Source of the DNA: Phanerochaete sordida
Lineage: Eukaryota; Basidiomycota; Agaricomycetes; Polyporales; Phanerochaetaceae
NCBI GenBank assembly: GCA_019973155.2
Contig: BPQB01000011.1
Span: 248,001 to 312,000 of the forward strand
Length of the DNA: 64,000 bases
Direction of reading: 5' to 3'
Shown: piece after piece, positions 42,369 through 63,834 of the stretch
How positions within the stretch are numbered: position 1 is the first letter of the stretch
Layout: each line of letters opens with the position of its first letter
Made by a program: the position numbers and the translations under genes
Notes under the pieces: generated by a model
Databases searched by the model: none
What the model was told of the DNA's origin: nothing
Seen by the model: the letters and a program-made list of their open reading frames with translations, nothing else

Positions 42369-44173
42369 TCACTTGCTGGGAGGGACTATAGTAAAACTCC
42401 TGACGTCCACCCGCGCGACGACGCTCCCCCAACCGTCCAGTGCGTTCTTGACGACTTCGTCCGAAGCGACAAGCCTGACATCCTCGGCAACTAGCGTCTC
42501 CAATCTGCCATCCAGCTTTCGAAAGCACGCCGAGAGGGCGTGTAGACCGTCTTCATTGAGCTCGAGCCGCTGAAGGGTGAGCTTGCGCAGAGCCGAAAGA
42601 TCTGACGGTGACAGCTCTCTGATGAACGTTGCAGAGAGGATGCTGGCATCGTCCAGACCCTTCAGCACAAGGCTTACGGCACCAGGCAGGCGCTCTAAAA
42701 ACACGATGAGCGGGTGTTCAGTCCGATCAAAGCTGGACTCGAGGACCAGGATGGGCATTGACGCTGCAAAATAATGCGCCTTGAGACGTTTTGCGAGTTT
42801 CCAAGCCATTCTGAATGCGTCGATGCCGCCTATAATGTCCGCGAAGTAGCATGACAACGAGAAAGCTAGCGTGCCATCGCTTGAGTGGCCGTTGAGCAAG
42901 GTATGTAGTGAAACGTTACGGAAGTATCCGATTTTCTCCGTGAAGGTGATGTGCAGACGGGTGATGGTCTCGAGCAGCGTTCGCGGGAGCATGCCAGGGT
43001 CGCATAGCGGCGGAATTTCCGTTGGACCATGACCACGCTCGTGTACCATGCGTGGCGTAAGGGACATGCTGCGCAGCGTCGGTAGCTCGAATGACGAGAG
43101 GATGTGGGAGACGACGGAGGCCGGCAGGTTCAGCGTGAGAGTTTGCAGACGCGCGAGCTCCATACGTCGCGTGCAGCTCTGTGTTTGCGACTCGGAAAAT
43201 AGCAGTCGCTGCAAGCACAGCGACTCGAGACCTGGCAGTGAACGGATGATGTCACAGAGGTCTGTGCCGGGCAGGAAGGTGATACTGCCACCTTTGATAG
43301 CCAACGAAGAGAGGTTGCTGAATAGCCCTGGGCTCCACGTGATGTCAAGGCCAGAGACAGTAACTCGGCGGAGGTGGGGGGCGTGGCCACCAAAAAGAGG
43401 ACGAGCGAGCGGGAATTCACAGTCGCTTGATATCTTGAACTCCGTAAGGGATGGGGCTTGTGTATGAAAGAGTGCATCTACGACCTCCTTGTGATGATCA
43501 TCGGCAGGATCTGCCAGTCCTTCCACCTTGAGGAACCTTGTCCGGCCAAGATTGGCCTCTATAAATTTCGCAACCGCATTCAACTGGAGGTATACATCCA
43601 GTTGTGTGGGGCCTAGAAGTATGGCATGGTCATAGTAGAGAGACAGAGGATAACCCCTGGTCCGCTCAGAGAGATAGCCCAAGTGTGCGCGCGGTGTGTT
43701 GAGGTCGAGGCAACTCCAGAGAGCAGGATACGCGAGGGCGACTGCGCGCCAGCGCGCGCAGACAGAGGCAACGACCACCGTCGGATGAATAGGGCTTTCG
43801 TCATAATGGCCGAAGTAGCGTGCGCCCGCGTCGTGGTGCTCGAAGATGAGCGCCAGAATCTCGTCCGGGAGACCATCCACGGGCGTGGATGAGTTGAGCT
43901 CTGCGGATACTGTGTCGCGGACGCAGTGGAGCTGAGTCATGCCTCGAGCACATTCTTCGAGGAGGTCGTTAAGCGTGCGGAGGTCGGCGCTGCGGGTGCC
44001 AGTGGTCGCGTTCGCCGGCCCGTCATTAGTTCGTCTCCTACATACACTATCAATTCAAAACGAAGCAGATTGAGTCGTGCTCAAGTAACTCACAGATAGC
44101 CATTGCTGTCCCACGAGCAAACAGCTTGGACGAAGCCATGGAGGGCCTTTCCGATGTCGTCGATGGTGGTCAT
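42369..44173 (-). CDS. F-box protein, tandem cluster member
   Basis: Exons 44173-44094 and 44037-42369 give 582 residues. Start MTTIDDIGKALHGFVQAV, then STPVDGLPDEILALIFEHHD and VASVCARWRAVALAYPALWSCLDLN (F-box). LRR-like region includes FGGHAPHLRRVTVSGLDI, GLFSNLSSLAIKGG, LARLQTLTLNLPASVV, and near the end LSALRKLTLQRLELNEDGLHAL. It is closely related to the next gene (44436-46242): same size, same exon layout, same spacing of motifs, so a tandem duplicate. The frame is intact. Confidence 0.87.
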
Positions 44174-44435
44174 GTTCAACTTGATCTCTTAGATAAGCGC
44201 CTACTTCGTCGGATTTGAAGGCCGTGCGCCGTTCGTTCTCACTGCACTGATTCGAGCATGGACGAAGCTTGCACACGGAATATGTGAGGTACGAGGCGTG
44301 ATATCGATTTCCATGCTGAGGTCGATCCTCAGTATCAGCAGTCCATGGGTCATTTGCTACAAGTGAATTTTATTGGAAGGATCGGAAAATTTTGCCAATG
44401 TACAGGAACAGCGTACACACGTTGTACGACCTGTC

Positions 44436-46242
44436 TTAAGGAGCTTCAATCGCGCCAGACACGTAAACACACGGCACTACGCCTCGAAGCTCGTCCAAGA
44501 TCCCCTCAACAGCCTCCCGTGACGGCATAAACTTGACGTCCTCGAACGCCATCCGCTCCAGCCTCCTGTCCGGCATGCGACACCACGCAAGCACAGTGCG
44601 CAGAGCGTCCTGGTCGACCTCCAAGCACCTCAGCACAAGCTCACGCAGATCCGCTCGCACACTCGCCGCGGCGCCCTCGACGAACGCCGCCGCCAGGACG
44701 CTGCGCGCCGCGGCGCGGCCCTCCAGCGTGAGCGTGCGGAGCGCGTGCGCGCGCAGCAGTGGCGCCAACGTGTGGTCGCGCCGCGCGAAGCCGGAACTGA
44801 GCGTGAGCGCGCGTGTCGCGGCGGACAAGTAGTGTGTTGTGAGGTTATCTGCGATGGCGGCGGCGGCGGCGTGTATGCGCTCCGGAACATCGTCGGAGAG
44901 GGTCCACGACAGCACGAAGGTGTGTGTGTCGTCCACCGACGCGGCGCGGACCGTGCTCTCGAGCTTGTGGCGGAAGCGGCCAGCTGCCTGCTGCTCGAGC
45001 GCGGTGGCGTGCACGTGGGCGAGGGGCGCGAACAGGGCGCGCGGCAGCATGCCGGGCGTGCACAGCGACGGGAGCCACGGGAGCCGCGGGCTGAGGTTCC
45101 AGGAGTCGTTCTCGATGTAGATGTCGTCCGGCGTGAGGACCACGCTATGCAGCGAAGGCGTTCCGAACGAAGACAGGACGTGATGGATGATCTTGATGGG
45201 CAGCGCCAACGTGAGCGTGTGCAGACGGGCGAGCTCCGTGCGTGGCGTGCAGGGGTGCTCGTGCAACATCAGAGCACTTTCCCAATGCTGGCAGTTCTTC
45301 AGGCATAGGGACTCGAGATGTGGGGATAATCGAAGGAGGTTGCAGATATCTGTTTCTGGTTCGAAAAGAATGCCCTTCCCTGAGACAGACAGCGAGGATA
45401 AATTGGCGAAAAGCCCTGAGGTCCACGTTATTTTGACGTCCCGCAGGCTCAGCTTCCGCACCTGCAGAGCAACGCCGCCGAAGATCGTCCCGCAGAGAGA
45501 CAGCCTCGCCAGGGACAATTCCTCGAGCAGGGGAGCCTGCGTGTTGATGAGAATATCGATCAGGTATCCTGGAGCTGAACGCAAGTTTATGTCTAGCGAC
45601 CATACTCTGGAGAGATGAGCCTTCAAGACTTCTGCCATTACCCGAGTGTCTGTAAATTCCTTTGACCATGACGTTCCGTTGTCGTCATCGCATAATATGA
45701 GCCGCATGGGGTGGCACTTGGCCCGCTCGACGAGTAGGCCCACGTGTGCTTGCGAAGCGTGAAGGTCGATGCGGCTCCAGAGCACCGGGTGTGCCAAGGC
45801 CACCGCACGCCAACGTGCGCATACCGAGGACACGGTGATGGTCGGATGGATGGGCCACTGGTCTCTGCGGCCGTTGTACTTGCGGAAGTACAGTGCGTCT
45901 TGGTCGTGGTGCTCGAACACGAGCGCGAGGACGTCGTCCGGGAGCCGGTCCACCGCCACGTACGAGTTGAGCTCCGCAACAACATGAGCGCGAACGCGGT
46001 ACAGCTGCTTGTGCACCTGGGTGCAGCTCTCCAACAGCCCGTCGAGCTTGAGGACATCGGCTTCGCGAGTCTTCGCGTTCGCCACAAGCTCGTCTTCGGC
46101 CAGCTTCCTGCATCCAACGCTATAAGGGCTGAGATTTTATGGGGATGTCCTTCCCGGCTCACCTATAACCGCTGTGGTTCCAAGAGTTTATAGCGTCCAA
46201 CAAACCGTGAAGTGCCTTGTCGATGTCCGAGATGGTGGTCAT
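44436..46242 (-). CDS. F-box protein, tandem cluster member
   Basis: Exons 46242-46163 and 46107-44436 give 583 residues. Start MTTISDIDKALHGLLDAI, then a Lys/Glu-rich linker, the F-box (VAVDRLPDDVLALVFEHHD, VSSVCARWRAVALAHPVLWSRIDLH), and LRR-like repeats such as LSLRDVKITWTSGLFANLSS and LRELVLRCLEVDQDALRTVL. The end reads RGVVPCVYVSGAIEAP. Its closest relative in the window is the decayed copy at 47130-48851. The frame is intact; substrate unknown. Confidence 0.87.
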
Positions 46243-46405
46243 GTTCAAGTTTGCATCCGTAATAGGCGCTTGCATATGGACGAATTTTGACTCCCGGACT
46301 TGCCTACTTGGCAGTACTTGCGACCATGACACACGCGGATTGGACTCGCTCTTGTGAGCTGTTCAGCTTGAGCTTGGAATTTAAGCACCGGGCGTATCGC
46401 GCATA

Positions 46406-47055
46406 CTGTGACGCACGGTAGATTGCAAACGTACAACAGATTGCAAACCGTTCCCGTCAGTCGATGACCTTCACTCCATCACTGCAAATATTATCCAGGA
46501 TAGATACGCTATGACGTACCTTGATTTGCTAGTATGGCGATATTCTGCAGAGATCCTGACAGTCTGTAGACGAATCGGCTGGTTTGCAACGTGCGGGACG
46601 AGTGTAAAACAGAGATTCACTCCGATGTAGTCCAGGTGTGTTCCTGAACAACCAGCGGTATGTGCGTCGTTCAACTGTTGTAGTTTGTGTCTACCCCGAT
46701 TGCCAGCGAGTGTGGTCTAACACGCTAAATACCGACTTCCAATCTTTTCGTGGTGAACGAAGCGTGACGTCGCGAGCGGTTATCACGGCGCAGCCAGCCA
46801 ATCAGGTGTCGATGCGCGCGCGATTTCCATCTGTCATTCGTTGTCACTGCTGTGACGACCTTACACCAGATTGCAAAACTCGACCATGGGCCTCCCATGA
46901 ACACAAACTCTTGATACAAAAAACTGGTAAAATTGCCTTCATATAGCTCTCTATGAGCTACATACTGCTGTGGCTACAGCGCCCGGTTTGATGGACAGAC
47001 GATTAATCTATGGCTTTTGAGGTCGAAACCGTTTGCAATCTACCCCACGCTACAG
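46406..47055. mobile_element. Candidate MITE with TA target-site duplication (650 bp)
   Basis: The left end CTGTGACGCACGGTAGATTGC and the inverted right end (GCAATCTACC..CGCTACAG) match over about 25 bp with four mismatches. TA lies just outside both (46404-46405, 47056-47057). The inside holds no convincing frame. A second copy of the AGATTGCAAAC word lies next to the left terminus. It occupies the gap between an intact F-box gene and its pseudogene. It is a non-autonomous Tc1/mariner-like element by its ends. Confidence 0.65.
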
Positions 47056-47129
47056 TACACTCGAAACTGCCAGTCAGAACAAATGATATGCCAGTGCGTA
47101 ACACGATACAATACAGCTATATCAGGTCC

Positions 47130-48851
47130 TCAGGCCTCAGCTGCTCCAGGCACGTCAACGCACGGCACGACGCCTCGCAGCTCGTCCAAGATTCCTTCGA
47201 CAACGTCCCACGACGGCACAAACTTGACGTCCTCAAACACCATCCGTTCCAGCCTCCTGCCCGGCATCTGACACCAGGCAAGCACAGCGCGCAGACGCTC
47301 GCCACGCCCGTCTCGACGAACGCCGTCGCCAGGACGCTGCGCTCCTCGGCGCGGCCCTCCGGCGTGAGCGTGCGGAGCGCGGGCGCGCGCAGCAGCGCCG
47401 CCAGCGCGTGCGCGCGCCGCGCGAGTCGCGGCAGTATGCCGCACGAGGCCCGCCGCAGTGGCGGCCGCGATGTCGTGCATGCGCGCAGGATCGCGGCAGC
47501 CGAGGGCCCACGCCAGCGCGCAGGCGCGTGTGCCGTCCGCCGACGCGGCCGTCGGCGTGGCATGGGGAAGGGCCTGCTCGCCGCCGGCTCCTCGAGCGCG
47601 GTGGCGTGCACGGCGGCGAGGGGCGCGAACAGGGCGCGCGGGAGCATGTCGGGGGCGCAGAGCGACGGGAGGAGCGGGAGGAGTGGGGGGCGCAGCCTGT
47701 CGTCGTCCTCGATGACGATGGCGTGCGGCGTGAGGTCTGCGTTGTGCAACGAAGGTAGCTCGAACGACGATAAGATGTGATGAATGAGGTTGATTGGCAG
47801 ATCCAGTGTGAGTGTGTGCAGGCGGGCGAGCGCCATGCGCGGCGTGCAGGGCTGCTGGTGCTCGTGGGCGATGAAGGCATGCTGCCGATGGTCGCGTTTC
47901 TTCAAGCACAGAGACTCGAGATGCGGAGAGGAGCGAAGGATGCCGCAGATGCCTGTCCCGGGCTCAAAGCGGTTGCCGATGTCTGAGACAGTGAGCGAGG
48001 AGAGATTGGCGAAAAGTCCTGGGCTCCACGTTATCTCGACCGAGCGCAGGCCCAGTCGTCGCACCCGGGGAGCATGACCGCCGAAGACAGGACTGAAGAA
48101 CGACAGGCCGGCAAGACACAGCTCCTCGAGCAAGGGAGCCTGCGTATTGACGAGAGTGTTGACCAGATGTTCGTCGTATGTGAAGCCGTTGATATCCAAC
48201 GAGCGCACTCTAGAGAAATTGTCCTCCAAGAAGCTTGCCGTCGCCAGCTTAAACGCGTGCTCTTCCCAGCCTTCCGCCCACCCACCAAAGAAGTGCTGGT
48301 ACATGAGCAGCAAAGGATGACACTTGGCCCGCTCGACGAGGAAGCCGGGGTGTGGCCGCGAAGCGTTGAGGTCGATGCGACTCCACAGTACCGGGTGCGC
48401 CAGGGCCACCGCACGCCAACGTGCACATACCGAGGACACGGTGATGGTCGGGTGGATGGGCCACTGGTCTTTGCGCTCGTTGTACTCGCGGAAGTACAGC
48501 GCGTCTCGGTCGTGGTGCTCGAACACGAGCGCGAGGATGTCGTCCGGGAGCTGGTTCACCGCCACGTACGAGTTGAGCTCTACAGCGACGTGGACGCGGA
48601 TGCGGCGCAGCTTCCTGCGTGCCTGTGTGTAGGATTCTCAGAGCTCGTCGAGCTTGCCCAAGTCGGCCTCGCGAGTCTTCGCGCTCGCTACCAGTTCAGT
48701 GTCCTCGGCCTGTTTCCTGTGTTCGACGTGGTGCATGAGCTGCAGTTTGACGAAGAGAGTCCGTTCTGACTCACCTGTAGCCATCATATCCCAAGAATCG
48801 ACAGCGTCCGCAGCCAAGCAGACTCTTGTCGATATCCGAGATGGTGGTCAT
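47130..48851 (-). pseudogene. Decayed F-box gene copy
   Basis: Clear relative of the gene at 44436-46242. The leader MTTISDIDKSLL is intact, but a one-base loss shifts exon 1 before DAVDSWDM. In exon 2 a TGA replaces a Leu codon (frame L-D-E-L-stop-E-S-Y at about 48630-48640). The body from VAVNQLPDDILALVFEHHD to LEEPAASRP is a good F-box/LRR frame. After that there are frame changes and a deletion: SVLATAFVETGVAS is in one frame, VLAWCQMPGRRLERMVFED in another. The original end (RGVVPCVDVPGAAEA) is still visible at 47130. It cannot make a normal product. Confidence 0.83.
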
Positions 48852-50038: not shown

Positions 50039-50705
50039 CTATGCCTCCTCGTCGTACCGCGGCGGCCGCCCTGCCTCGCCCTCGTACGCAGGCACGGGGT
50101 CCCACTCGCCCGGCTCAACGGCACTCCGCGCCTCGGTGACGCTCCCGCGGCGGACGTGCGCCTGCGGCGGCGCGTGCACGACGTCCTGCCGCGTCGAGGT
50201 AAGCGCCCACGTAGGCGGATTCTCGGGCCAGGGCGGCGGCTGCTCGGGGTCGGCGCGCGCCGCGTCGGAGTGCCGGCGGTGCGGCAGGAACTGCGCGATG
50301 CGCGCCTTCCACGGCGGTCGCCGCGCGGGCAGCAGGTAGCGGGCGTGCTGCGGGGCGGCGCGCGGGGTGGGCGCGGGCGCGGCGCTCTGCACGGCCTCGC
50401 GCACCGCCGCCCGCCAGGACTTGCCCTGGCGCCGGAGGATAAGGCACCTGCGATAGACTATTAGAGTGGGCCTCGGCGCAGCAAGGAGAGACCCACTTGA
50501 TGCACGGCGAGAGCAGCACGCAGATGCTGACGACGATCGTGACGACGACGAGCGCGATGCCCGCCTTGTGCTGCTGCAGCGTCAGCTCGAGAGTCGCAGA
50601 GACACCCGCGGACACCCGGCGGCGTACCCGTGAGCCCTCGTCGCTGCGCCGCGCGTCGTCGACGATGATGACGGAGACCATGGCGCTCTCGAAGCAGAAG
50701 ACCAT
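50039..50705 (-). CDS. Single-pass membrane protein with PPxY tail (array member A)
   Basis: Exons 50705-50497 and 50447-50039 give 205 residues. After a basic N-terminus (ARRSDEGSRVRRRVS) comes one membrane helix (GIALVVVTIVVSICVLLSPC), a basic stop-transfer (LILRRQGKSW), and a polar Pro-rich tail ending PVPAYEGEAGRPPRYDEEA. PPRY is a PPxY motif, the ligand of WW domains in Rsp5/NEDD4-type HECT ubiquitin ligases. The intron between helix and tail is in phase 2, as in the other members. A TATA-like TATATAAGT-type site lies at about 50867-50876. Function is unknown; an adaptor role is inference. Confidence 0.68.
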
Positions 50706-50879
50706 CGCGGTGCGCCGTGGCTGGTGCGCACGGCGCCGACGCTGTCGCGGGAGGAGGCAAGGTGCGGTATCGCTATCGATGTGCGCCCACGTCCGCGGTA
50801 TGCGCTTCGCACGGCTGTCCTGCCCGCGGGGGCTGCCCTGGCCCGGCCCCCCGGCGCGTTGCGTTACTTATATGCCCGC

Positions 50880-52136
50880 GCGCGCCCCCCGAGGCGCCAG
50901 GCGATAGAGTTCGCCGTGCGGTGGGAGCGCGCCGCGGCTGCGCGGACGTGCCGGCCCATCAGGTCCTCGGCACGCGCAATCGCCCGCTCCCAGGGGCGGC
51001 CGTGCGCCGAGGGGTGCGCAGCGTCGCAAGTCGAGCGCGGGGAGCCTGTGAACGTAGCAATGGCGCACGACTCTGCGACTACGCGGACAGCCCAGCCCAG
51101 AGAGAAAGCCCTCGCATTCATGCACGGCAGCAGCCTGCTGACCTCGCCGATCTCGGGCCGAGCGCCCTGGGCGCGGCCTTCACGCACGCCCTTCGGATAC
51201 GGCACGTCGAGGCCCAGGCAGGTACCGTCCCACGGCGTATATACCGCAGTGCGGGGCCGACAGCATCTCCGCACAAGTGTCGCGCTCCTTGGGCAGGGCG
51301 CGAGAGCGGGCTGCGCGGCGTTCCCAGGGCCGGCGGGTCCCCGGGCTGCCCGCGCACCGCCAGGGCCGCTGCGCGGATACGCGGCAGCGGCTCACAGCGA
51401 CGGGTTTCGAGGAGAGGGGGCCCGACGAATCGGATGCCGGGGCTGGCTGGGGCGAGTCGCTCTGGTGCGTCCGGGACTGGGCGGACGAAGTCGCAGGCGC
51501 GGGGTGGGGTTAGGGGTACGCTGATGGCCGAAGACGTTGTGGCGCGGCAGAGTCCGGGGCTTGGCGGTGAAGCGCTTGAATTTCGTCTCCTCGCACACAC
51601 AACGTAGTGAGCCCAATTATTTTCTGGTAGCTGGATATACACACAGGAAAGAAAGTACTTGTAGTTTAGCATCAGTAAATATCTTTAAATCTGAACGCAT
51701 AATGGGGGAACAACACGAGCAGGTTGCTCTGGCACACCAGCCTGAGGGATCGGTCCGAATATAATTGTGTGTGCAAGCAACGCCGATTTGCGTATGGTCG
51801 AAATCCGACATGGTAAAAGCGCTCATCTCAAGAAATAACCTTGGTGCAATGTTAGGAATGGTATCAGAATATTTATCGCAAGGCGAGGGTGACGTCCGGC
51901 AGGCATTCTTTGTGTAAGGACCGACACAGATCCAAGATCAAGCACGACGACGCTCGCTCATTGCTGATTTTGGCACCAATTATCATTATATAAGATATGA
52001 AGGAGTGGGCGGAAGTCCATCGACCCCCGAAATAATGTACACTGTCCCTAGTACGGTCTCTGCGTTAGCCTTAAGCATATATCAGACGCGCAACACATAG
52101 GACTTCACCTTTGCAGTCTTGGACATAACACCTGCG
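50880..52136. other. Intergenic region, GC-rich, nothing recognised
   Basis: Long frames here on both strands are Arg/Ala/Pro-rich and look like GC-driven chance frames. A lone TATATA at about 51238 resembles the promoter of the Cys-rich gene at 55437 but no gene follows it. AT-rich sequence from 51600 to 52080 is probably spacer. Confidence 0.35.
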
Positions 52137-52577
52137 TTATTGTGTCGCAGCAACGTACTCGGGCAGCTTCGGCTCCACCTGGTACGGCGGGGGCGCAGCT
52201 TGCAGTCCCGCCTCCAGGTCGCCATCGCTATATTGCGACCGCGAGCGATGCACGTGCGCAGCGGGTGGTGCATTTGGCATAGACGGCGACGGCCCTATCA
52301 CAGGGGGCTCTGGAGGCTTCGCCGTAGCATAGGACGGCCCCCGTCGGTAGGCACTACAGTTCAATTAGTCGGGCGCTGGCGATGGTAGCGGCGTAGGACT
52401 CACAGGCCGAGAAACATGATCAGCAGCAACAGCGAGACCATTATAATGGGGATGGTGATGTACATCGCGCCCTGGAGCCTGCGTCAGCCGTGCACAAGCA
52501 GAACGCAGAACGGGACGTACGGGACTGGACATGGCGGCGCCGGCGCGCCTTGCGAGCTTGACGATGTCGTGTGGCAT
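52137..52577 (-). CDS. Single-pass membrane protein with PPxY tail (array member B)
   Basis: Exons 52577-52521, 52471-52404 and 52353-52137 give 113 residues. Exon 1: MPHDIVKLARRAGAAMSSP. Exon 2 is the membrane exon (MYITIPIIMVSLLLLIMFLGL). Exon 3 is the tail, with NAPPAAHVHRS and AAPPPYQVEPKLPEYVAATQ. PPPY is a PPxY motif; LPEY is a weaker copy. The phase-0 then phase-2 introns equal those of members E and I. The exon 2 acceptor was chosen at CTCCAG because it keeps the frame, as in member E. A TATA-like site is at 52619-52627. Confidence 0.68.
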
Positions 52578-52639
52578 GGGTTCGGGCAGGAAATGAGCAG
52601 CAAACCGTGCGGGGCCCCGTATAAGTCCTGCGCGGGGAT

Positions 52640-53940
52640 ACCCCAAAGAGAGTTGGTCGGGCGGCCGGGTGACGTCTCGACTCGCCGAGGTCGCGCCGAG
52701 CACGCTACGAGATGAAAGGGCTGGCGCGCCCTCGTTGCGGCTTCTGAGGTCACAGTAGCGCAGAGATGCCCATAGGTGGGCATGAGGATTGAATGCGGGG
52801 TTCGAGCTGCATCGCGCCAGGACGCGCCTGCCCGCTGCGTCTCGAGATCCGCGACGTCACGTTCGCGTCCACGTGCGGGTTCCGGTCTTCTTGAGACCGG
52901 CCAGCTGGATATTGCGGCAGATGTCATTGGAATCGGAGGTATGATGCTCGTGCTCTGGTTGCAGGTTGAACGCCATTCGGCATTTCGTTCTCAGGCGATA
53001 CCCGCGTTGTACGTCTGCGTCGATATTTCCTGCTATTCTCCGAGCGGTACACTCAAAAACAAGACTCGAATGATCATATACATGCGACGCACCTCAGGTT
53101 TTGGCACATTTCCCCGGCGAAACCTGCGCGCATCCTTGCTCAGGGCACCCGGCAGCACTTCTCGCCTGTCCCTTCACTGCGCCAGCCAAGTTCGCATCCC
53201 GGGATACGAGAGGTCGGAAGCTGATTCAGTCTCAGAGAGTGGTAGAAGCGCAAAATAATAGCACGCTCGGGCCAGAGACGAGGGAGGGCAAACAGTCTCG
53301 GAGCTGGCAGAGACCGTGGTGGTCGAGACGAGCGGCGGTGTCAGAAGTCTGAGCGGTTTACCGGGCGTCGCCACCGGGACCCCAAACGCAGCCGCTTGCC
53401 TGGGCTTCTCCTTCCACCTCCTTCACTGCCACAACCGCATTTCTTCTTGAACGACGGTCCGCATGTGCGGGCGCGGCTGCGTAAAGTTAACGTCGTGCCC
53501 ACGTGCGCTTCGAAGCTTGCCAGACGTGGACATGCGCAGGCCGCGCAAAGCCAGCGCAAAGCGGCTCGCGGAAGTGTGACGCACGGACTCGTACTGAGTA
53601 CTGAGTACGTGGTCCTTCGCTGGAAATCAGAGCTATAGTGCTGATGCCATTGCTCTGCGTTGCAGGATGTGCTAGCCACTCCAAACTTGTGACTCGGCAC
53701 GCTCTGGTGAATTGGGGAAATGGCATTGTCATGCACTGCAAGCCGCGAGCCGTGTCGCTGGTGTATAGACCTCGCCGATGCCGGTTTGGCCCCATGCCAT
53801 CGCGGGTTTCAAGACAAACTAGCCATGGTGCGCTCCTGAGCGAGTGAAGTGAGCACTTGTTTTACAGGTTCGCTTCCTGCTGCTGTCTCTGCGGTCACGG
53901 GCATCATGGAATTACCCTACATATGTGGCCCGCTCCATCT
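52640..53940. other. Intergenic region, nothing recognised
   Basis: No frame with conserved character on either strand, no repeats other than low-order ones, no RNA gene seen. Confidence 0.35.
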
Positions 53941-54307
53941 CTAGCCACTCACTACAATCAACCCAGACATCCACTCTCCGCGATGCACGGCGCATATTTG
54001 CGTCCAAACCCTCCATGCATGCCCAACCTCGGCCGACTAGTGAACCTGCCGCGCTGATCGCCCTCTGCGGCCGTTAGCGAGGCATGGAAGGGAAGCTCCG
54101 TGCGCCCTTTGTGCTCAAGCCTGATCAATTGGACGGACGACAGCGCAGAAGCATGGAAGGGACGCTCTGGGATCCACACTGGGACCCATGACTTTGGCAC
54201 AGCCTGCCGGGCGTGCGCTTCCGCCGGAGTGCAATTATATATAAAATAGGACGCGATATGCCCCTCGCCTAGCGCGACCGTGATCCCACTCTTCCTCTCT
54301 ACTGCTC

Positions 54308-54638
54308 ATGTCCGACAAGTGAGCTCCCCGCTCTCCAATCGCTGAGTTTTGCTGAATTTCGCTGATGTTGCTCCTGCCCCAGCTCAACCCAGTCCCAGCC
54401 TCCGACCGCGCCGCCGCCGGCAGGCAGCGTGGCGACGGGCGGAAACCGCCTCGCGCAGAGCATCCCGCCGGAAGTCTTCCAGACGCACTCGCACGTCGTG
54501 CTCGCGACGTACTGCTCACCGCCGCCGAGCTGCGTCCCGAGGTGTCGCCGTTGGCCGGGATACTGCGGGAGTGAGTATATCTCGCTTTTTGCTGTGTGGG
54601 TTGCAAGAGCTGATTGGTCGGTAGATGGGCGGTGGTGA
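54308..54638 (+). CDS. Small Cys-rich protein, copy 1
   Basis: Exons 54308-54318, 54383-54570 and 54625-54638 give 70 residues; leaving the last 54-nt intron in keeps the frame and ends at the same stop. N-terminus MSDNSTQSQPPTAPPP is polar and has no signal peptide. The C-terminus reads TYCSPPPSCVPRCRRWPGYCG. Copy 2 (55437) shares YC.PPP.C...CRRWPGYC. The four-cysteine, Pro/Trp-rich end could bind a metal or form disulfides. A strong TATA box (TATATATAAA, 54235-54245) precedes it. Function unknown. Confidence 0.58.
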
Positions 54639-55436
54639 GGCTGACGAGGACGCTGTAGCTGAGAAGTCGCGTTGGATGGCGCTGTACGTGTACAATTGCC
54701 TTTCGAGGCGACATCATACACCATCCACGTCGGGCCGCCGTGCGACGCGTTGACTGTGACGATCCCACCTTCGCGCTGCTAGTGAACAGCGCAAGCGATC
54801 ATCCTGTTGGTATGCAAGCCGCGGTCTGCACCGCTGGCTTAGGGCTGTATGCCGTTCGCCAGGTCTCGCGGCAGGTTTTGAGCCAGGGCAGAAGCCGATG
54901 CTACCGGATTCTCAGTCATGCCGCCTCGCGTCTCTATGACGGCTAGCTCCTGTGACGAGTCACTGTGGCGGAATGATGTCGTGTACAGGCCCGATATGTC
55001 ACGCCTGGGTCCATGGTGCATATTCAGCATCAGTATTAACGATATCTCTGATTAGCAGCCACGACAATCAGCGTTCATGCTCTCGCGATGCACAGAGCAC
55101 GTTCACGCGCAAACAGTCCATGCATGCCCATCCGCGTCCTGCGGTATCTGCCGGAGCTGATCTCACTCATCAGCCGTTGGCACAGGCATGGAAGGGAAGC
55201 CTACCGAGCCCACCACCCAGCTGGCCACTGAATGGCACTATCGACAGCGCGGAAGCATGGAAGGGACGTCCCAGAATCCACACTGGTACCCATGACTCTC
55301 GCAGACACAGCTTGCCGGGTGTGCGCTCCCACCGGGAGCCCTGCTGCACACAGGGCTGCACATATATACCGCGGGACCGCACCTCCGCACCTCAAGCTTC
55401 AAGGCCTCACCACCCACCCTTATCACCCGCGCAACC

Positions 55437-55736
55437 ATGTCCGACCCCGCGAAAGAGTGAGCCGCACACACCCTATCCTATCCACTCGAGTCGCTGACCT
55501 TGTCTGCAGCCAAGCTCAGACGAACCCCGCGCCGGCGACGTCGCCGACGGAGAAGGCCGCCGAGGGCGACCTCCCGGCAGGGGTGACGCCGCTTATGATG
55601 TTCAACCGGTCGCTCGTGCAGTACTGCCCGCCGCCCAACTGTGGCGGCGGGTGCCGCCGCTGGCCGGGGTACTGCTGCTGTGAGTCGCGCCGCGCGCGGG
55701 TGTGTGCATGCGCTAAATTCGTGTTGTATGACAGAG
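55437..55736 (+). CDS. Small Cys-rich protein, copy 2
   Basis: Exons 55437-55456, 55510-55679 and 55735-55736 give 63 residues; the last splice completes a TAG stop directly after the cysteines. Without that splice the frame runs on to 55822. The protein starts MSDPAKDQAQTNPAP, and ends LVQYCPPPNCGGGCRRWPGYCC. No signal peptide is seen. It shares exon plan and Cys motif with copy 1. A TATA box (CATATATACC, 55361-55370) lies 70 bases upstream. It interrupts the minus-strand PPxY array, as does copy 1. Confidence 0.58.
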
Positions 55737-56059
55737 CGACGGAACGACGGAGCAAAGAGAGGAGGGCGCGGGGAGGGTTGTATGCGGACGGGCGATTGCG
55801 GGTGCACTATGCGAAAGAATGAATATGCAGGGGTTCGACGCACAGACGGCGGGCACGATGTGTTGGTTCCTGCTCCTGGAACCTGGCGCATATATCCCAG
55901 TACGAAGACAGAAGGATGACGCTACTCGCACGCGAGCTTGCTACGCGGGACGGTGCCCGACGTCAGCTTCAGCGGTCCCTACAAAGAGCGAGGCGTACCT
56001 TGTACCTGCCTCTCCGACATATTCTGCCCGCATACCTCTCAGTGGGGCAGTGCCCGCCT

Positions 56060-56548
56060 TCAGGCAGCGCCGCCGTGCATGTACCGCGGCGGCTTCGGCT
56101 CGGCCTCGTACGGCGGAGGTTCAGCTCCTCGGTTGACGCTGCTGTCTAGAGCAACGTCTTGGTAGGCCGGTCCACGTGCGGGCGACGCGCGGAGGTGTGC
56201 GGCTGGCGGCGCATTTGGCGTGGTCTCATCTGCTTGGTCGCCTGCGCATGCGGACACCGGGGACGCAGATACAATGCACCCGTTTAGTGGAACGCGTGAT
56301 TGCTCTGCGCGGCGGGACCGGCGGGAGCTGCAAAACGAGTATGAGCGCGAGACGGATCGAGCAGCGCGGGGCACTCACAGGACGACGCAGACTGCGAGCA
56401 GCAGCGTGAGGCCTACAACCACGGGCAAAGTCACGTAGAGAGATGCCTGAAATGGTGTCAGCAAGCCCCGCACAACGTGAGGAGGCGTTCGTACCGTAGA
56501 CGGTGTGCCCGGCGCAGCGCGTTTGGCGAGGCTAGGTACGGGCGGCAT
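56060..56548 (-). CDS. Single-pass membrane protein with PPxY tail (array member E)
   Basis: Exons 56548-56495, 56446-56379 and 56327-56060 give 129 residues. Exon 1 MPPVPSLAKRAAPGTPST; exon 2 ASLYVTLPVVVGLTLLLAVCVVL (membrane helix); exon 3 starts with a basic patch SRRSRRAEQSR and ends NRGAEPPPYEAEPKPPRYMH. It has two PPxY motifs (PPPY, PPRY). The tail block NAPPAAHLRASP..GPAYQDV matches NAPPAAHVH in B and PAAHLHESPPY in K. TATATAAG at 56604-56613 is about 60 bases upstream. Confidence 0.72.
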
Positions 56549-57450
56549 GGCGATTACATCGAGGGAGATCCGCGGCTCGAGGGACTCGATAGTATCCCCC
56601 GCGAATATATAAGCCGAGGCGAGGGGCGCGCCGAGGGCACCGACAGCGCCGCCGCGCACGGTGCGCCACCTCAGCCGACGCGCAGCACGTCGGCGCGCGT
56701 GCCAAGGAGGCCGCCGCGGCCTTGAACGTCGCGCGAGGCGCACGCGAGAGCCGGATGCAGCGCGAGGCGCAGCCGCCGAGCCAGCGGCCGCCGCCTTGAT
56801 TCAGGGGCTGCCAAGGGTGCTGGAGGCTGGACGTGCTGGGTCCGTCGACTCGACTCAGACGATGCAGACAGTAGCCCTGGTGCAGAGAGCTCGAGACACG
56901 CGCTCCTGTCGTCGAGGACTGCCTGAGCAATTTCTGCGCCACATAGCCAGCGCGGTTGGAGGATGGCTGAGCGCGGCACACTCACAATATTTGTTGAATT
57001 TCTACGTGCAGGCGAGACGGTGGTCGTCGCCAGCGAAGCGCGAGCGGCCGGCGGCCGAGCGGGCGTTGTGGCGCCCGGCTGTCCACGTGCACCTTGGCCT
57101 CGCCGCTTTGGCGCGCGAGCAGGCTTGGCGGAGGACGCAAGGAGGACGGCGACGACGACGCTTTTCAGGTTTGGGTGTCTTGCGTAGACTCGCCGCGGGA
57201 AAAGGACTGTGCGTTGTATTCTACTTGTGCAATTCTATATTTATTTATTTTGCTGGGTCTACGTTAGTAGACTGCCCTCCCAATCGTCCTGAGGACCCAC
57301 TGGCGGTCCGCCGCCTGCCAAACTCGCGTTCCCAAACCGAATAAATTAGATGCACAGGTCAAGTACAATGTTTTCGAGGCCCATGAGAGATGCGTAGTGC
57401 CCAGCACGAGGGTGGATGAAACCCAAATACGAAAGAAAGGAGTAAGACGC

Positions 57451-57984
57451 TCAGACGACACGCAAAACGCCCTTCTTCGGCGCGTGCGCCGCGCTCGTGG
57501 GAGGCGTGTACGGCGGCGGCAGCTCGCCCGCGTCGCCCTCAGCCCCACCATCCTCCAATACGCCTACATCATTAGACGCGAACAGCGCGGGGCTGAGCAG
57601 CACCGTGCGGTCGGCGCGGTCCGGCAGCGGGTGCGTCTTCCAGAGCGGCGTGCGCGCGAGCTCGGGGAGCGCCACCTTCTCCTCGGGCCACACGTCGACC
57701 TTTTCCGCCTCGAACGCCTCGACGTCTGCGTCCTCGACTGCGCGCCAGGGGAGCCGCAGCGCAGGCAGGCGCGGGAGGTGCCGCGCCAAGCGGTGGCGGC
57801 GTACGCTGCTTCAGCGTCAGCGAAGGTGGAGAGGGGAGGGAGGGGAGACGTACATGAGCACGCCGGCGATGGTGGCGCACGTGCAGACGACGGTGGCGAC
57901 CACGACTGCGACGAAGGCGATCTGGGCTCTGGCGTCAGTACCCGCGCGTCCTCGCACCCTTCGCACTCACAGCTCCCGTTCCAT
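57451..57984 (-). CDS. Single-pass membrane protein with PPxY tail (array member F)
   Basis: Exons 57984-57971, 57928-57854 and 57805-57451 give 147 residues. MEREL leads straight into a membrane helix (IAFVAVVVATVVCTCATIAGVLI), a basic patch (VRRHRLARHLPR), and an acidic tail (VEDADVEAFEAEKVDVWPEEK) with one PPxY motif near the end (GELPPPYTPPTS). The last residues are basic (APKKGVLRVV). Phase-2 introns flank the membrane exon. A TATA box is at 58034-58042, about 55 bases upstream. Confidence 0.68.
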
Positions 57985-58509
57985 GCAGCCCCATCCTTCC
58001 AGCGAGTTGATGCTCGAGATGCACGGTTTTGGGGTATATATCGCCTGGCACAGGCGCGCCAGGGCCCGCCGGCACGCCGCGAGCAGCATGAGTCACCGGC
58101 TGGCGGACGCGGCGCACGCAGGCAGGTGGCGGTGCGCGGTTCACATCGACGCGAAACCGAAACTGCGATGTGATCAGGACGCGTTGATGCTCGTCGTGCG
58201 TCTGGCGGCGGGGTGGCGCTCGTGCTGTCGTAAGCACTGGGCACGAGGAGAGCTCTGGGAGATGGCGAACAACGCGTGTAGGTAAGGAGCGTCTGAGCTA
58301 GGCGGGAATCTATCGCGAGGGGGCGTGGAGAGGTGGACGAGGGAAGCGTACGACCTTGCAAGGCAGCACATTTTGTCTGTGATGCCAAGCATCATCCACG
58401 TGCTGCCCGAGGCTGTGCCCGATGCTCTCCTCCTCACGATGGTATCACCACGCATCACTGCTCTTGATCATACGCGTCCTCTCCAGATCTCCTGTTCTTC
58501 ATTCATCTA

Positions 58510-59278
58510 TCAGGGTGCGGGCTCGCGAGGCCTTGGCTGCCGGAGAGTGTCGTAAGTCGTGCCTGGGGCGCGTATGAGATGAGGAGGCGACGGCGGCGGT
58601 GTGGGCTCTGACGGCGTCGTGGCGTTTGTACTTCGGCAGGGTCTAAGATAGATCATGTGTATATGCTGGGCGTGCGAATCGTATCCATCCGGTGCCAGCT
58701 CGAGTCGTGTCCTCGAGCGCAGCGAAGGCGCCGTCGCGTCCGCGGACTGCGTGATCGTCGTGCGCGTACCCGCTGGCGTACGGTCTCCGGGCGCGAGCGC
58801 TCCCCATGCGTCTGGCGCGGAGGCCCCGGTGCGGGCTTCGGCCGCAGGAGAAGGCACCACGTCCAGCTTGCGTGACAGTCGTGTGCGAGGGCGTCCGACG
58901 TGGCGGCTCGAGGCACGGCGGAGGATCCGTGGACCGCGGAGATTGATACACGCCCAGTCGACAGCGGAGGCGGCTGGTGGGGATCGGTCTTGGGCAGCGC
59001 GGGGAGTGGGGACTCAAGCGTGTGCTTGCAGCAGGAGTCGAGGACCGCTTGGGCGTGGGCTTGATAATGGGCCTGAGGCGCGCGACGTGGTGAGCCTGCG
59101 AGACGTCACGGAGGACAGAGAGCAACGCACCAGCTGATGTACAAAACGACGAGGGCTGTTTAGGACGACACCGTGTGCTGACCGCGTGTGGATTGGACTG
59201 CGAACAGCGCCAGCGGCCCAGCGTTCGTGAGGGGAAGCGAAGGAGGACTGCGTGCCCCAGGGCTTGGTTGTCGGACAT
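58510..59278 (-). pseudogene. Possible decayed member of the PPxY array (G)
   Basis: Start MSDNQALGHAVLL resembles member H (MSDGLAVG). A hydrophobic stretch TALVVLYISWCVALC lies about where the membrane exon should be but a TAA precedes it in frame. A Pro-rich tail (LPALPKTDPHQPPPLSTGR) follows in a different frame. I could not make one open reading frame, so this is either a dead copy or a gene I spliced wrongly. Confidence 0.3.
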
Positions 59279-59847
59279 GGTGGCGAGAAGCGATGGCGTT
59301 GGGCATTGTTTGTACACGGGGACGCGAGAGCTTGCAAGCAGAGGCGAATGAAGGAAAAGTCTAATATATGCGTTATGGTGAGCTTTAATCACGAGGATTT
59401 ATCAGGGAATGCTGGAGGCTATTGCAACAGCGAACATGCGCGCCCTGGCGACAGGCCTTCCCTTGCACTGTCGATGACTTTGGTGGAAATGTGCCAGGTC
59501 CAGGTTGGAAATCCGGCCTCCGCGATGAGAGAGGTACAATTAAGTCGCAGATATACCTGAGCCTATGCCACAGCATTGTATGACGCCCCAACTGCAGGGC
59601 TTCCCGAGTGTCGTCGTCTGAGCAGGAAAAAAGGTTGCGTGCATGTCGTTGGTGTTACATTGTCCTGCGTGTCCGTTCGAATAGTATACATAACTTTCTG
59701 TAAAGTAAAGTTAGCACTCTCGCGTGCAGCGTAGAGATGTATCGGCACTCACAATCATTGTCCATCCCAACACACATCACCGGCATCGCCCTCTTCTACC
59801 CCAAAGTCCAAAGGAATCCACTGGCGACGACGGAAGAGCGCCGCGCC

Positions 59848-60528
59848 CTACCGCTCGCTCAGGTGCGACCCGCGCATCGGAACTGGCACCAAGGGCGCCT
59901 CGAGGGTATACGCCGGCGGGAGCTCGCGCGCGTCCTGCGCGTGCGCTGCCTCCGACGCCGCGTCCTCGGGCGCAAGGAACGGGTTCTCCTGGCCATGCCC
60001 AACCCGCGAGCTTTCCCCATCGTCATGTCCAGCTTGTGACGGTGCCGCGTACGACAGCGAAACCGTGGACCGCGGCGCCAAGCGCAGGGGGTCGGGGCGC
60101 GGCGGCTCGAGGCGCAGCTCCCCGTTTTCGCGAGAGAACACCGGCGCGGGGTCTGGTTGGGGAGGGTCGCGCGGCACGTGTACCGACGCGAGCTCCGTTG
60201 ACGTCGCGAGCAGCGCCTGCCCGGAGTCGGACTCGGCGCGTGTGGACGCGCCCGCTTCGAGCGTGCGTTCTGTTGGTGGCTTGCGTGTGCGATTCTGCGC
60301 TCTCTGCCGACGAATCCTGCAGCGCACGATAGGATGGGTCAGGACGAGAGGAGAGGACGCGAAGAGCGTGAGGCGCACCAGATGCACGCGCCGATGCCCA
60401 CGGCGACCTTGACGACAATGATGACGACGATAATGGCGACGATCTGTATTGGATACTATATCTTGAAATGCGTAGGACGAGCTCAAGAGGAAGATGCGTA
60501 CCGTGCCTACAGCAAGCCCGTCGGACAT
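59848..60528 (-). CDS. Single-pass membrane protein with PPxY tail (array member H)
   Basis: Exons 60528-60502, 60455-60379 and 60316-59848 give 190 residues. MSDGLAVGT, then a membrane helix (IQIVAIIVVIIVVKVAVGIGAC), basic IRRQRAQNRTRK, and a long Ser/Pro/Glu tail. A PPxY motif (ELPPAYTLEAP) sits about 18 residues before the stop. Other features: PAPVFSRENGELRLEPPRP, GQENPFLAPED (an NPF motif, which in other proteins binds EH domains in endocytosis; chance cannot be excluded). Exon phases 0 and 2 as in B, E and I. Confidence 0.7.
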   Translation of the reverse strand: MSDGLAVGTVRIFLLSSSYAFQDIVSNTDRRHYRRHHCRQGRRGHRRVHLVRLTLFASSPLVLTHPIVRCRIRRQRAQNRTRKPPTERTLEAGASTRAESDSGQALLATSTELASVHVPRDPPQPDPAPVFSRENGELRLEPPRPDPLRLAPRSTVSLSYAAPSQAGHDDGESSRVGHGQENPFLAPEDAASEAAHAQDARELPPAYTLEAPLVPVPMRGSHLSER

Positions 60529-61333
60529 GGTGGCGGGGGACGTTCGGGCTGTACGGAGAGGGGAGCGCGAGATCTTGAGCTACAGAGCTGATATACCCAT
60601 CATCCGCCAATATATGCGGTATAGCGATGACCAGGGCCCTGACTGGTGACGTGGGAAGGAGCCGTCCCCTTGACAGTGCGTACGCGAGCAGCTGGTGAGG
60701 CCTGAGGCGGTGTACTGGGAGGATAAGGTTTGATCCGCCCTGGTACAGCCGCGCTCTCGTTCTGCGCAGCGTAACCGCATTACATCCTGCGAACATCTAC
60801 TGAAGAGAAAGAAATCCATTCGTCATCTTGGGCTCGGCGGGCTGCTGAGGCCTGGCGCCGAGGAGCCGCTGTCGCAGAGCTGGAGGCGCATGAGCATAGG
60901 TGGCAGCGTGGAGCGTACAGCCCGTCACCTACGTGGTTCACAACATGCCATCAAGACTGCGAGCATCGCAGCTCCGCTCGATGCGATGAACCGGCCGACT
61001 CTACGCACGCGAGTGCCCAATTGACATCAAGGAGGCTGGAAGTGCTGCTTCCGCATAGCAAGAGCCCGTCGCGTCGACGCGGAGTAGGTGTACAGCGGGG
61101 AGCAACGCACTTATGCCGTAGATTCGAAGACGGACATTGTGATGGTATTTGAACTGCCAGCAAAGGAGCACAACATGATCTACGACCTGGGCCATCATGA
61201 ATATCTGTTCTGGCACCCACCAGGCCACGAAAATCACTCACAGCTACCACCGCCACGCCCGTGCCTGACAGCGACCTCTGGCTTCATGAGCCCCACCTCC
61301 ACTCCCCGTCCCCATGCCAATCACCATCACCGC

Positions 61334-61785
61334 TCAACGCGCCCCTCCACCCTCATACTCGACCCACTCATACGCCGGGCCCTCTTCAGGATCGTACGTC
61401 GAATGCGCGTGTACATGCGCGGCCGGGAGGTGCGCGAGCGCCGCGTCGTCTGCAGGCGAGGCGTCAAAGGACGAGTGTAAGGACGAGCGCAGGGCGCGGA
61501 TGCGCGCGCGGCGGCGGACCCGGTGGCAGCTATGGCGTGAGGTGAGTGGTGGAGGTGCGAAGGAGAGGAGAAGGCGTACAGGAGCGCCAGGAAGAGGACG
61601 GGCGCGAAGGCGAGGGCCGCGATGATTATGCCGGCGAGGGCGTTCTGCAGCACGGATAGGTGAGTAAAGGCATGTATGCGGGGATGGCAGGGTGCACGTA
61701 CGGATGCGAGGCCGCTATGGCGTTTTGTGAGTGATGACGTCGAAATCATCGCCTGTGCGTCTGTGTGCGATGTGCCGCGCGACAT
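61334..61785 (-). CDS. Single-pass membrane protein lacking the terminal PPxY (array member I)
   Basis: Exons 61785-61702, 61644-61580 and 61529-61334 give 114 residues. Exon 2 is the membrane exon (NALAGIIIAALAFAPVLFLALL), exon 3 begins with CHRVRRRARIRALR. The tail has LPAAHVHAHSTYDPEEGPAYEW, aligning with LPAAHLHESPPYDVEHGQAYEN in K and VPAAHVHAYPPYSTGIGPIYED in J. A TGA then ends it where J and K continue into LP.YDAEAKPP.Y. So it keeps the middle tail motif but has lost, or never had, the C-terminal PPxY pair. Confidence 0.66.
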
Positions 61786-62178
61786 TGGTGGACACGCGAG
61801 GCTTGCGGTGTGCGGTTACTATAACGTGCCGGTGCATTGCGCTGGGCGTGGCCCAGACCGTGCTGTTGTGCCGCGGCGATGCACCACAACAACAGCGGAT
61901 CATAGTCCGAGGAAAGATCGCGGGTCCAGAACGACTGGGCCTGGAGAGCGGGAGATATTTCGGAGTTCAGGGCGAACAGTGTATGGCCACTCTTTACAGC
62001 AGCCATCGAGGTATGTATCAGACTGTCCAGCATCGCATTCATCTTGGGCGACTTAGCATGGTTATTATTCGGACATTACGGTACAGTATCTATTTACTAT
62101 AGAACCGGTCAGAACTCTTTTGCGCGCTGATTGAACACGAAAGTACTCACGATGAGAATTCTTTTACGATGAAGCTCG

Positions 62179-62653
62179 TCAAGGCATATCTCGATAGTCC
62201 GGAGGCTTAGCCTCCGCATCGTATGGCGGGAGCTGCACCTGGTGCGACATTTCGCCTTCGGCCTCGACATCTTCATAAATTGGGCCTATGCCTGTGCTGT
62301 AGGGCGGATAGGCGTGTACGTGTGCTGCTGGTACGTGCGCGAGCGACGGATCTCCCATGAACGACGAAGAGTGGTACATATGGGCCGGGACGTGGGGGGA
62401 CTGCAGTGTGTATATGCGCGTGATTCGTCTACGGAAGGCTCTGTGTACGATAGTCAGCGGAAGCGAAAGAACGAGCAAGATTGAAACACACCCAATCACA
62501 GCAATACCTATCAGCAGAACCACAGTAGCCACGATAAAGAGTCCAGTGAGCCCGCTCTGTGCGACTGATAATCAGCATGCCAACCCCGTATCGACAGAAC
62601 GAACCACCTACAACCTGCGTCAAATCACGTCTACGCTGCGGTGCGCTTTGCAT
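62179..62653 (-). CDS. Single-pass membrane protein with PPxY tail (array member J)
   Basis: Exon 62564-62179 is clear; 62653-62629 (MQSAPQRR) is the best fit for exon 1, with a weak donor (GTGATT), giving 136 residues. Membrane region FIVATVVLLIGIAVIGCVSILLV, basic HRAFRRRITR, then tail with VPAAHVHAYPPYSTGIGPIYED and the end VQLPPYDAEAKPPDYRDMP. It has three PPxY motifs (PPYS region, LPPY, PPDY; strictly PPxY: PPDY). Here membrane and tail share one exon, so the phase-2 intron of the others is absent. Confidence 0.62.
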
Positions 62654-62699
62654 GTGCTACGAGCTGAGATCTATCATGTCGTGCGCGCAGCGGAGGACT

Positions 62700-63423
62700 G
62701 AGGATGATATACAGCATGCGCCGGGCGCACGCCAGGCCCAGTCCGGGCTAGTCCTGCGCCTCCCCGGGTCGATCCGCCGAGAGCGGCGAGAGCGACGCGG
62801 GCTGGAACCCCCAGAGAGAAGGTTGCGGGCAAGAGCCGGTTTTCCGTATCGCCGTATTGCGACAGGGTGCAGCAAGAGGGGGCATTGAAGAAAGTGCGAT
62901 GCGGCGAGGTCATCCTCGGGATCGTCTCCAGGCTGGGGCCCAGGGTGGAGGGTCTGTTGGGCAAGGCAGCATCTGTGGACGCAATATACCGCGCGGGCAA
63001 GGCACGAGCTTAGCGCTTAGTGACTGACGCTCTTGTTTACGAGAAGCTAGCGGGAGGGAGGAGGAGAGAAGGCGCACCCGAGCGACGCTGGAGATGATAT
63101 CGTGACGTGACCGCGCTCACGTGCACGTCGTCACAGTGCCGGGGTTCGATCCGCCCACCGTCGTCGCGTTTGCTTGCTGGCCTCACCCAACTTATGCTGG
63201 CTGCTTCTTGCGTTTCGTATCCTACATCTTTATCAATATGCACAAATGTAATATCCTAACAGATATTATATAGCTGCTAAACTACAATATCAGCCTGAGG
63301 GACCGTTGCTGAACAACTCTCGAAGGCATTCTGTAACTTATACGCTGGTGAGGTCCATCTCATTCTCAGCAACTTGACCGAGGCATAGCTTACCTATATT
63401 TCTGACTGCCATCCTTACCAGAG
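62700..63423. other. Spacer between array members J and K
   Basis: No supported gene. Like the other spacers in the array (56.6-57.4, 58.0-58.5, 60.6-61.3, 61.8-62.2 kb) it contains GC-rich chance frames, and probably the promoter of member J at its left end. Confidence 0.35.
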
Positions 63424-63834
63424 CTACGAAGGAACGTCCCCATACTCCGGCGGCTTCGCCTCCGCATCGTAGGCCGGAAGCCGCCTCGCCTCGCGTCCAG
63501 GCGCAGCTTGGAGCTCAATGTTCTCGTATGCCTGCCCATGCTCCACGTCATACGGCGGGCTCTCGTGCAGGTGCGCCGCAGGCAGACGCGCCAAGACGCG
63601 TCCTACCGCACTCTCCGGACGAATCCACCCTCGACCAGAGGAACGCCCCCGCGCACCCGAGGCCGCCCTGCGTTCCGCTCTCCAGCGGCGAAACCTGCGT
63701 AAATATGTGAGGGGCCTGGCGATGATACACAGAGGTGAAAGGGCGTACCAGAGGATGAACAGCGTCAACATGCCGATGACAGCGATCGCGACGATTATGC
63801 CGAAGACGGCCTGGAGGCCAGTTGCTATCGCCAT
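63424..63834 (-). CDS. Single-pass membrane protein with PPxY tail (array member K)
   Basis: Exons 63834-63749 and 63694-63424 give 118 residues; the 54-nt intron is also open in frame. ATG 63834 begins MAIATGLQAVFG and a membrane helix (IIVAIAVIGMLTLFILW), followed by FRRWRAERR. Tail: LPAAHLHESPPYDVEHGQAYEN and the end LPAYDAEAKPPEYGDVPS, with PPEY as PPxY motif. A further 5' exon is possible, as in B and E. It is closest to J in its last 40 residues. Confidence 0.65.
   Translation of the reverse strand: MAIATGLQAVFGIIVAIAVIGMLTLFILWYALSPLCIIARPLTYLRRFRRWRAERRAASGARGRSSGRGWIRPESAVGRVLARLPAAHLHESPPYDVEHGQAYENIELQAAPGREARRLPAYDAEAKPPEYGDVPS

Follow-up and report, generated by a model that had tools for sequence, protein, structure and literature searches.

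What are the small membrane protein genes that lie in tandem on one stretch of the Phanerochaete sordida genome, and what might they do? The stretch in question, referred to as the window, comprises 64,000 nucleotides (nt) of contig BPQB01000011.1 (C11), with window position 1 corresponding to C11:248001. The assembly comprises 40.8 Mb in 222 contigs, and the draft genome of the white-rot basidiomycete P. sordida YK-624 contains 17,108 genes, identified by BRAKER2 prediction followed by manual curation (PMC8530024). An original prediction, made from the letters of the window, described at least eight such genes with PPxY tails and proposed that they encode ubiquitin-ligase adaptors or decoys. 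This proposal appears reasonable, since the genome encodes a suitable three-WW ligase and the PY residues are among the best-kept columns of the protein alignment. The explanation that we favor, with moderate confidence, is that the array represents tandemly expanded, perhaps lineage-restricted, single-pass membrane adaptors for a ligase of the Rsp5/NEDD4 type.

All eight genes (A, B, E, F, H, I, J and K) could be modelled as spliced open frames on the minus strand between window positions 50039 and 63834 (Table 1). They have a common design, comprising short GT-AG introns (48–62 nt), one membrane helix, a basic stop-transfer segment and a Pro-rich tail. The matching intron phases described in the original prediction (phase 0 before the membrane exon, phase 2 after it) were recovered, except that K contains only the second intron. 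The sequence motifs attributed to the group were confirmed in part: (i) [PL]PxY is present in seven of the eight genes, with a pair in four, and is missing from I; (ii) the PAAH(V/L)H block assigned to B, E, I, J and K is exact in four of them, while E reads PAAHLR; (iii) of B, E, J and K, to which a terminal (L/P)P.Y..E.KPP.Y pair had been assigned, all four have a pair, the second motif of B being LPEY instead of KPPxY.

The main array extends beyond position 63834 and past the window edge, with six further intact members and a pseudogene on C11. It contains 14 intact members within C11:298039-332448 (the eight window genes plus K2, M, N, O, Q and S), arranged in two oppositely oriented arms, the genes from A to M lying on the minus strand and those from N to S on the plus strand. 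A second cluster, composed of two members (X and Y), is located approximately 150 kb away (C11:147083-148794), which raises the total to at least 16 intact paralogs plus the pseudogene. Each paralog has a single membrane exon, and the exon design is common to all, save that the first intron is missing from K and K2. The 30 introns of the 16 members are 45–62 nt long; a branch-point-like YTRAY sequence is located 10–35 nt from the 3′ end of 18 introns and is absent from the remaining 12.

Membership was examined by an architecture scan (an acceptor, a membrane exon leaving phase 2, a short intron and a basic tail of ≥40 amino acids (aa) containing [PL]PxY) of about 154 kb around the two places. 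This analysis revealed 14 genes: 12 in C11:298039-332448 and two at C11:147189-148794. B and I fall below the thresholds of the scan and were added from their models, to give 16. When the wrong phases (0 or 1) were demanded, no genes were found in 104 kb, compared to 12 with phase 2. The models of B, E, M, O and X are identical, letter for letter, to the deposited P. sordida proteins P0006, P0004, P0002, P0003 and P0005 (PsYK624 tags), respectively, which constitutes agreement with another gene prediction and not proof of expression. J differs from PsYK624_051040 (P0007) by a single residue, which the deposited protein has in addition at the first donor site. Among the matches of the protein searches, the other ten members had no deposited spliced counterpart.

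The whole genome was also searched by tail sequence and by pattern. The tail of K gave 11 matches, ten of which correspond to the family on C11, including the pseudogene. A DNA pattern representing the second PY motif matched 19 sites (control pattern, 4), eight of them in the family; in-frame reading and scanning of the other 11 revealed none with the family design. The exact pattern of the first motif, (L/P)P(P/A)Y(D/E)AE, was found seven times, in each case within the family. When one mismatch was allowed, 40 matches were obtained (reversed control pattern, 17), of which 30, all with one mismatch, lie outside the family. The tail of A gave four weak matches elsewhere (E 0.03 to 3.4). Beyond the 154 kb, where the genome was probed by tail sequence or pattern alone, no further member was recognised, with 34 weak matches left unread.

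Across the family, [PL]PxY is present in 15 of the 16 tails and a pair in ten. The two motifs of a pair are separated by nine residues in nine cases and by ten in Q, and the second begins 8–10 residues from the C-terminal end. Six members (J, K, M, O, Q and S) carry the extended form LPxYD(A/V), each with PPxY further on. In 20,000 shuffles of each of the 16 tails, a mean of 1.53 tails contained the motif (maximum 7; observed 15) and 0.003 the pair (maximum 1; observed 10); the paralogs are not independent, so these figures indicate that the motifs were kept and not that they arose many times. Among 120 well-filled alignment columns, PY residues account for five of the ten most conserved. In the first motif the tyrosine is identical in all 15 rows and the proline in 14, and in the second the proline is conserved in 14 rows and the tyrosine in 13, compared to 0.375 for the top residue of the median column.

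This conservation bears on one of the two main rivals of the adaptor reading, namely that the proteins are simply substrates whose turnover is driven by the ligase and which function elsewhere, e.g. in the membrane. Such a function would not by itself explain why the PY columns are conserved. In B, E, J, K, K2, M, O and Y, the residue just ahead of the second PY motif is a lysine, and J and K contain no other lysine. This might be expected of a substrate, but the position is occupied by arginine in A, Q and S and by alanine in N. We consider this alternative quite unlikely.

A candidate partner was sought among the WW domains encoded in the genome. Of 11 WW matches, eight exceed the Pfam cut-off, and three of these are clustered at C60:201831-202376; HECT pieces follow in the same orientation, as far as position 203680. 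In two genome searches, C60 was the sole contig with both WW and HECT matches. PDB matches of the three-WW stretch include chains of NEDD4L, Itch, WWP1 and Rsp5. The genome thus encodes a three-WW ligase of the Rsp5/NEDD4 type, which would be a suitable partner for the tails.

The predicted topology is compatible with such a contact. In all members but Q (15 of 16), the flank following the helix carries more positive charge than the N-terminus; its net charge is +3 to +7 across the members. The N-termini are only 5–36 residues long, a length of 5 having been assumed for K and K2 in the absence of a first intron. According to the positive-inside rule, a positively charged flank lies on the cytosolic side; a cytosolic tail is therefore indicated. 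AlphaFold models were obtained for six deposited proteins. That of O contains one helix (residues 7–44) and an unstructured tail; the mean pLDDT is 58.9, reaching 84–92 in the helix core alone, and thus only the helix is informative. Sna3-type proteins have two membrane helices, and a relationship to them was rejected on the basis of the one helix in the O model and the one membrane exon of each gene.

The second main rival is that the proteins are decoys, or titrators, which bind the WW domains of the ligase at the membrane with no cargo and thereby lower or relocate its activity. The very short N-termini, the lack of a recognisable cargo domain in Pfam scans and the lysine-poor tails (0–5 Lys) are all in line with this idea. 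On the other hand, the membrane and juxtamembrane segments vary between paralogs, a feature that a pure decoy would not need, and the low number of lysines may merely reflect a GC-rich genome. A decoy function is, in our estimation, unlikely.

Half of the members (E, I, J, K, K2, M, O and Y) also contain a block with the consensus G(P/Q)xY(E/Q)x(V/I/L), upstream of the position of the PY pair (expected by shuffling, 0.009). An enrichment of the plain YxxΦ signal was rejected (8 observed, 7.7 by shuffling). Protein I retains this block and PAAHVH, and its tail matches a family HMM built with I left out (E 3.5e-8); its frame stops after the block and before the place of the PY pair, and so it has no PY motif. 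It may serve as a natural PY-less control.

In the adaptor reading, the very short N-terminus would be located outside the cell or in the lumen, the single helix in the membrane and the flexible tail in the cytosol. The C-terminal LPxY/PPxY pair, with its nine-residue spacing, would dock the WW domains of the ligase, and the upstream G(P/Q)xY(E/Q)xΦ block may be recognised by adaptor complexes as a sorting signal. The membrane cargo, to be ubiquitinated and sent to the vacuole, would be chosen by the helix and juxtamembrane region, the parts that vary from paralog to paralog.

Several observations weigh against this scheme. No cargo-binding domain is visible in the 16 members. A, F, H, N and X have a single [PL]PxY and I lacks the motif, so not every member needs the pair. 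Since bare YxxΦ is not enriched, a sorting role for the upstream block would depend solely on its repeated context. Five further WW matches over the cut-off are located on five other contigs, and hence another WW protein could be the partner. The recent duplicates described below appear to be only loosely constrained. Finally, profiles built from 12 members or from six tails matched only P. sordida proteins (5 and 4 matches, respectively).

The signs of recent expansion, namely 16 paralogs, two recent duplicate pairs and one decayed copy, are well supported by the sequence comparisons, in agreement with the expanding family that had been proposed. M and O, one in each arm, encode proteins with 79% identity, and their DNA similarity (78%) reaches into the 5′ flank. 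K and K2 are adjacent and share 70% protein identity. The dN/dS ratios (Nei-Gojobori) of 0.50 for K-K2 (dS 0.34) and 0.31 for M-O (dS 0.45), figures that carry no significance test, suggest a loose constraint. Nine other pairs, with 40–45% identity, have dS values of about 1 to 2.6. The tree of the 16 proteins is little resolved, with good support for one of 13 inner branches (K with K2). The pseudogene, at about C11:325.2-325.6 kb, contains an in-frame stop and, in an alignment read by eye, has also lost the PY residues. A relic (G) had additionally been suspected between F and H. The local score of this region against H (25.5, compared to a maximum of 21.0 in 100 shuffles) gives weak support to this suggestion, limited to the start region, and the architecture scan found no member at 59241-59381.

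The pseudogene, the possible relic and the varying lengths of the members might also be expected if the genes were neutral by-products, i.e. mostly unexpressed copies, of recent origin, of a membrane-helix gene in a region prone to turnover. However, paralogs that have diverged to dS of about 1 to 2.6 still keep their frames, splice sites and PY motifs, and both recent pairs show dN/dS below 1, which makes this explanation very improbable.

No Pfam family reaches its curated cut-off in any of the 16 members. RCR (PF12273) gives sub-threshold matches in K (E 0.0023, 19.1 bits) and M (E 0.0052, 17.9 bits), running in both from the helix into the tail. These matches, together with the shared design and type of PY motif, could indicate that the array proteins are diverged Rcr1/Rcr2 relatives by descent, a possibility that concerns their origin and is compatible with an adaptor function. 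Both scores are nevertheless below the cut-off of 27.8, the other 14 members have no RCR match at E up to 1, and comparable scores are reached in single members by families with no relation to RCR (FeoB_associated in S, E 0.0012; DUF4328 in K, E 0.0018), an effect that any membrane helix can produce. Such descent therefore seems doubtful. An RCR search of the P. sordida genome gave no matches, a result that is uninformative, as no control genome gave matches either. X resembles CYYR1 below threshold (E 0.0048, 17.8 bits; cut-off 31). Two other candidates were rejected: alpha-arrestins, since no arrestin was listed among the Pfam matches of any member, and basidiomycete pheromone precursors. 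The latter end in a C-terminal CAAX box, and in none of the 16 proteins is the fourth-last residue a Cys.

When 5.8 billion proteins were searched with the sequence of K alone, nothing was retrieved but a read-through version of K, derived from the window. This protein search, like those with profiles, depends on 5-residue words in common and on gene models having a suitable length, and so does not prove absence elsewhere. The family is perhaps lineage-restricted, to judge by the matches obtained, and relatives may carry it as unannotated genes, since small spliced genes need prior prediction. In the open-access literature, searches with terms on fungal PPxY adaptors found, among the entries listed, no title or abstract start describing such a family.

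Table 1. Positions, exon structure and PY-type motifs of the array genes located in the window.
Feature	Position in window	Strand	Length (aa)	Exons	Introns	Motifs	Basis
A	50039..50705	-	187	50705-50628, 50573-50497, 50447-50039	54 and 49 nt, GT-AG, phases 0 and 2	PPRY 50054-50065; VPAY ten residues before PPRY (looser pair)	spliced model, architecture scan
B	52137..52577	-	113	52577-52521, 52471-52404, 52353-52137		PPPY+LPEY pair, 52155-52193	model identical to PsYK624_050970 (P0006)
E	56060..56548	-	129	56548-56495, 56446-56379, 56327-56060		PPPY+PPRY pair, 56081-56119	model identical to PsYK624_051000 (P0004)
F	57451..57994	-	148	57994-57971, 57921-57854, 57805-57451		single PPPY, 57508-57519	model, architecture scan
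G (possible relic)	59241..59381	-					local match to start region of H
H	59848..60528	-	186	60528-60502, 60443-60379, 60316-59848		single PPAY, 59908-59919	model, architecture scan
I	61334..61749	-	102	61749-61702, 61644-61580, 61529-61334			spliced model
J	62179..62653	-	121	62653-62615, 62556-62492, 62440-62179		LPPY+PPDY pair, 62194-62232	spliced model
K	63424..63834	-	118	63834-63749, 63694-63424 (2 exons)		LPAY+PPEY pair, 63442-63480	model; near copy K2 beyond window

The neighborhood of the array contains several other genes. Between B and E, two small paralogous genes with Cys-rich ends (CRRWPGYC) were recognised by eye on the plus strand (window positions about 54300-54620 and 55440-55750); the provisional protein of the second has no Pfam match. 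To the left of the array (window positions 42372-48637, minus strand) lie three tandem F-box-like open reading frames (ORFs) with weak F-box matches below the cut-off, and to the right (C11:332660-334390, minus strand) one F-box-like ORF over the cut-off. F-box genes are common in these fungi, and the flanking of the array by an expansion that is also ubiquitin-related is probably a coincidence. Within the right arm, between Q and S, are located an ORF of glycosyltransferase family 20 (E 4e-76; C11:328323-329393) and a second ORF (C11:330217-330591) that matches trehalose-phosphatase below threshold. A long ORF at C11:152874-154340, a few kb from the X/Y cluster, appears by eye to be retroelement-polymerase-like.

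PY-motif membrane adaptors determine which transporters and receptors are removed by a NEDD4-type ligase. A fungus with two clusters that together hold at least 16 small single-pass candidates, variable almost throughout except in their docking motifs, would constitute a natural experiment on the growth of an adaptor repertoire and on the way in which short membrane proteins find their cargo. Transformation of P. sordida has been reported (PMC8530024), and the candidates are thus testable.

Precedents for the proposed mechanism are known in Rcr1/2, Comm and PRRG4, and by this analogy it is less new than first described. Yeast Rcr1 and Rcr2 are described as short membrane proteins with the PY-type motifs PPSY and VPEY in the cytosolic tail (PMC5578492). 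They are counted among the non-arrestin transmembrane adaptors of Rsp5, with Chs3 as a cargo of Rcr1 (PMC9105457), having been called possible adaptors in an older paper (PMC2810449). The array proteins are likewise short, with one membrane helix and a basic stretch in all 16 models. Two [PL]PxY motifs are present in the tails of ten members (X, F, H, N and I are among those lacking a second), and the VPAY of A, which accompanies PPRY, resembles the VPEY of Rcr1/2. They differ in having no RCR match over the cut-off, in the nine-residue spacing of a PY pair placed near the C-terminus and in copy number (at least 16, compared to two yeast paralogs). Other recruiters of Rsp5 to membrane cargo through PY motifs are the alpha-arrestins, Bsd2, Tre1/2, Ear1 and Ssh4, as listed in PMC9105457 and PMC2810449; in contrast to these, the array proteins contain no known adaptor domain at the Pfam cut-off. 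A PY tail alone is no proof of ligase action, since Rsp5 is reported to be dispensable for the effect of Rcr1 on chitin deposition, and Nedd4 binding for the main effect of Comm on Robo (PMC5578492).

Short transmembrane proteins with L/PPxY tails are described as regulators of membrane proteins in animals as well as yeast, examples being the Drosophila Commissureless motif GLPSYDEAL and the vertebrate PRRG4 motif GLPSYEQAV, the latter with PPxY after it (PMC5578492). The array proteins have the short single-pass form of Commissureless and PRRG1-4, and some of them resemble these in an extended LPxY(D/E) followed, as in PRRG, by PPxY (for example LPAYDAEAKPPEY); the LPxYDxE...PPxY tail is similar to PRRG in the order of its motifs. 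Comm proteins are said in the same source to show remarkably low conservation outside the motifs (PMC5578492), and this is also true of the array. Unlike them, the array is fungal and tandem, and no Gla domain match was found in Pfam. Vertebrate CYYR1 is another short transmembrane protein with PY motifs (PMC5578492), from which X differs in having no Cys-rich N-terminus. The likeness to the LPxY motif of Comm/PRRG may be convergent; the motif is too short to show descent. We do not file the family under RCR; by its design it would work as RCR proteins do, homology to Rcr1/2 or Commissureless/PRRG not being established. It is possible, and we suggest this only tentatively, that an adaptor repertoire with a constant PY tail and a variable helix, able to aim one ligase at many membrane cargos, arose recently and expanded in the Phanerochaete lineage, its LPxYDxE...PPxY module being independent of the Comm/PRRG and Rcr modules.

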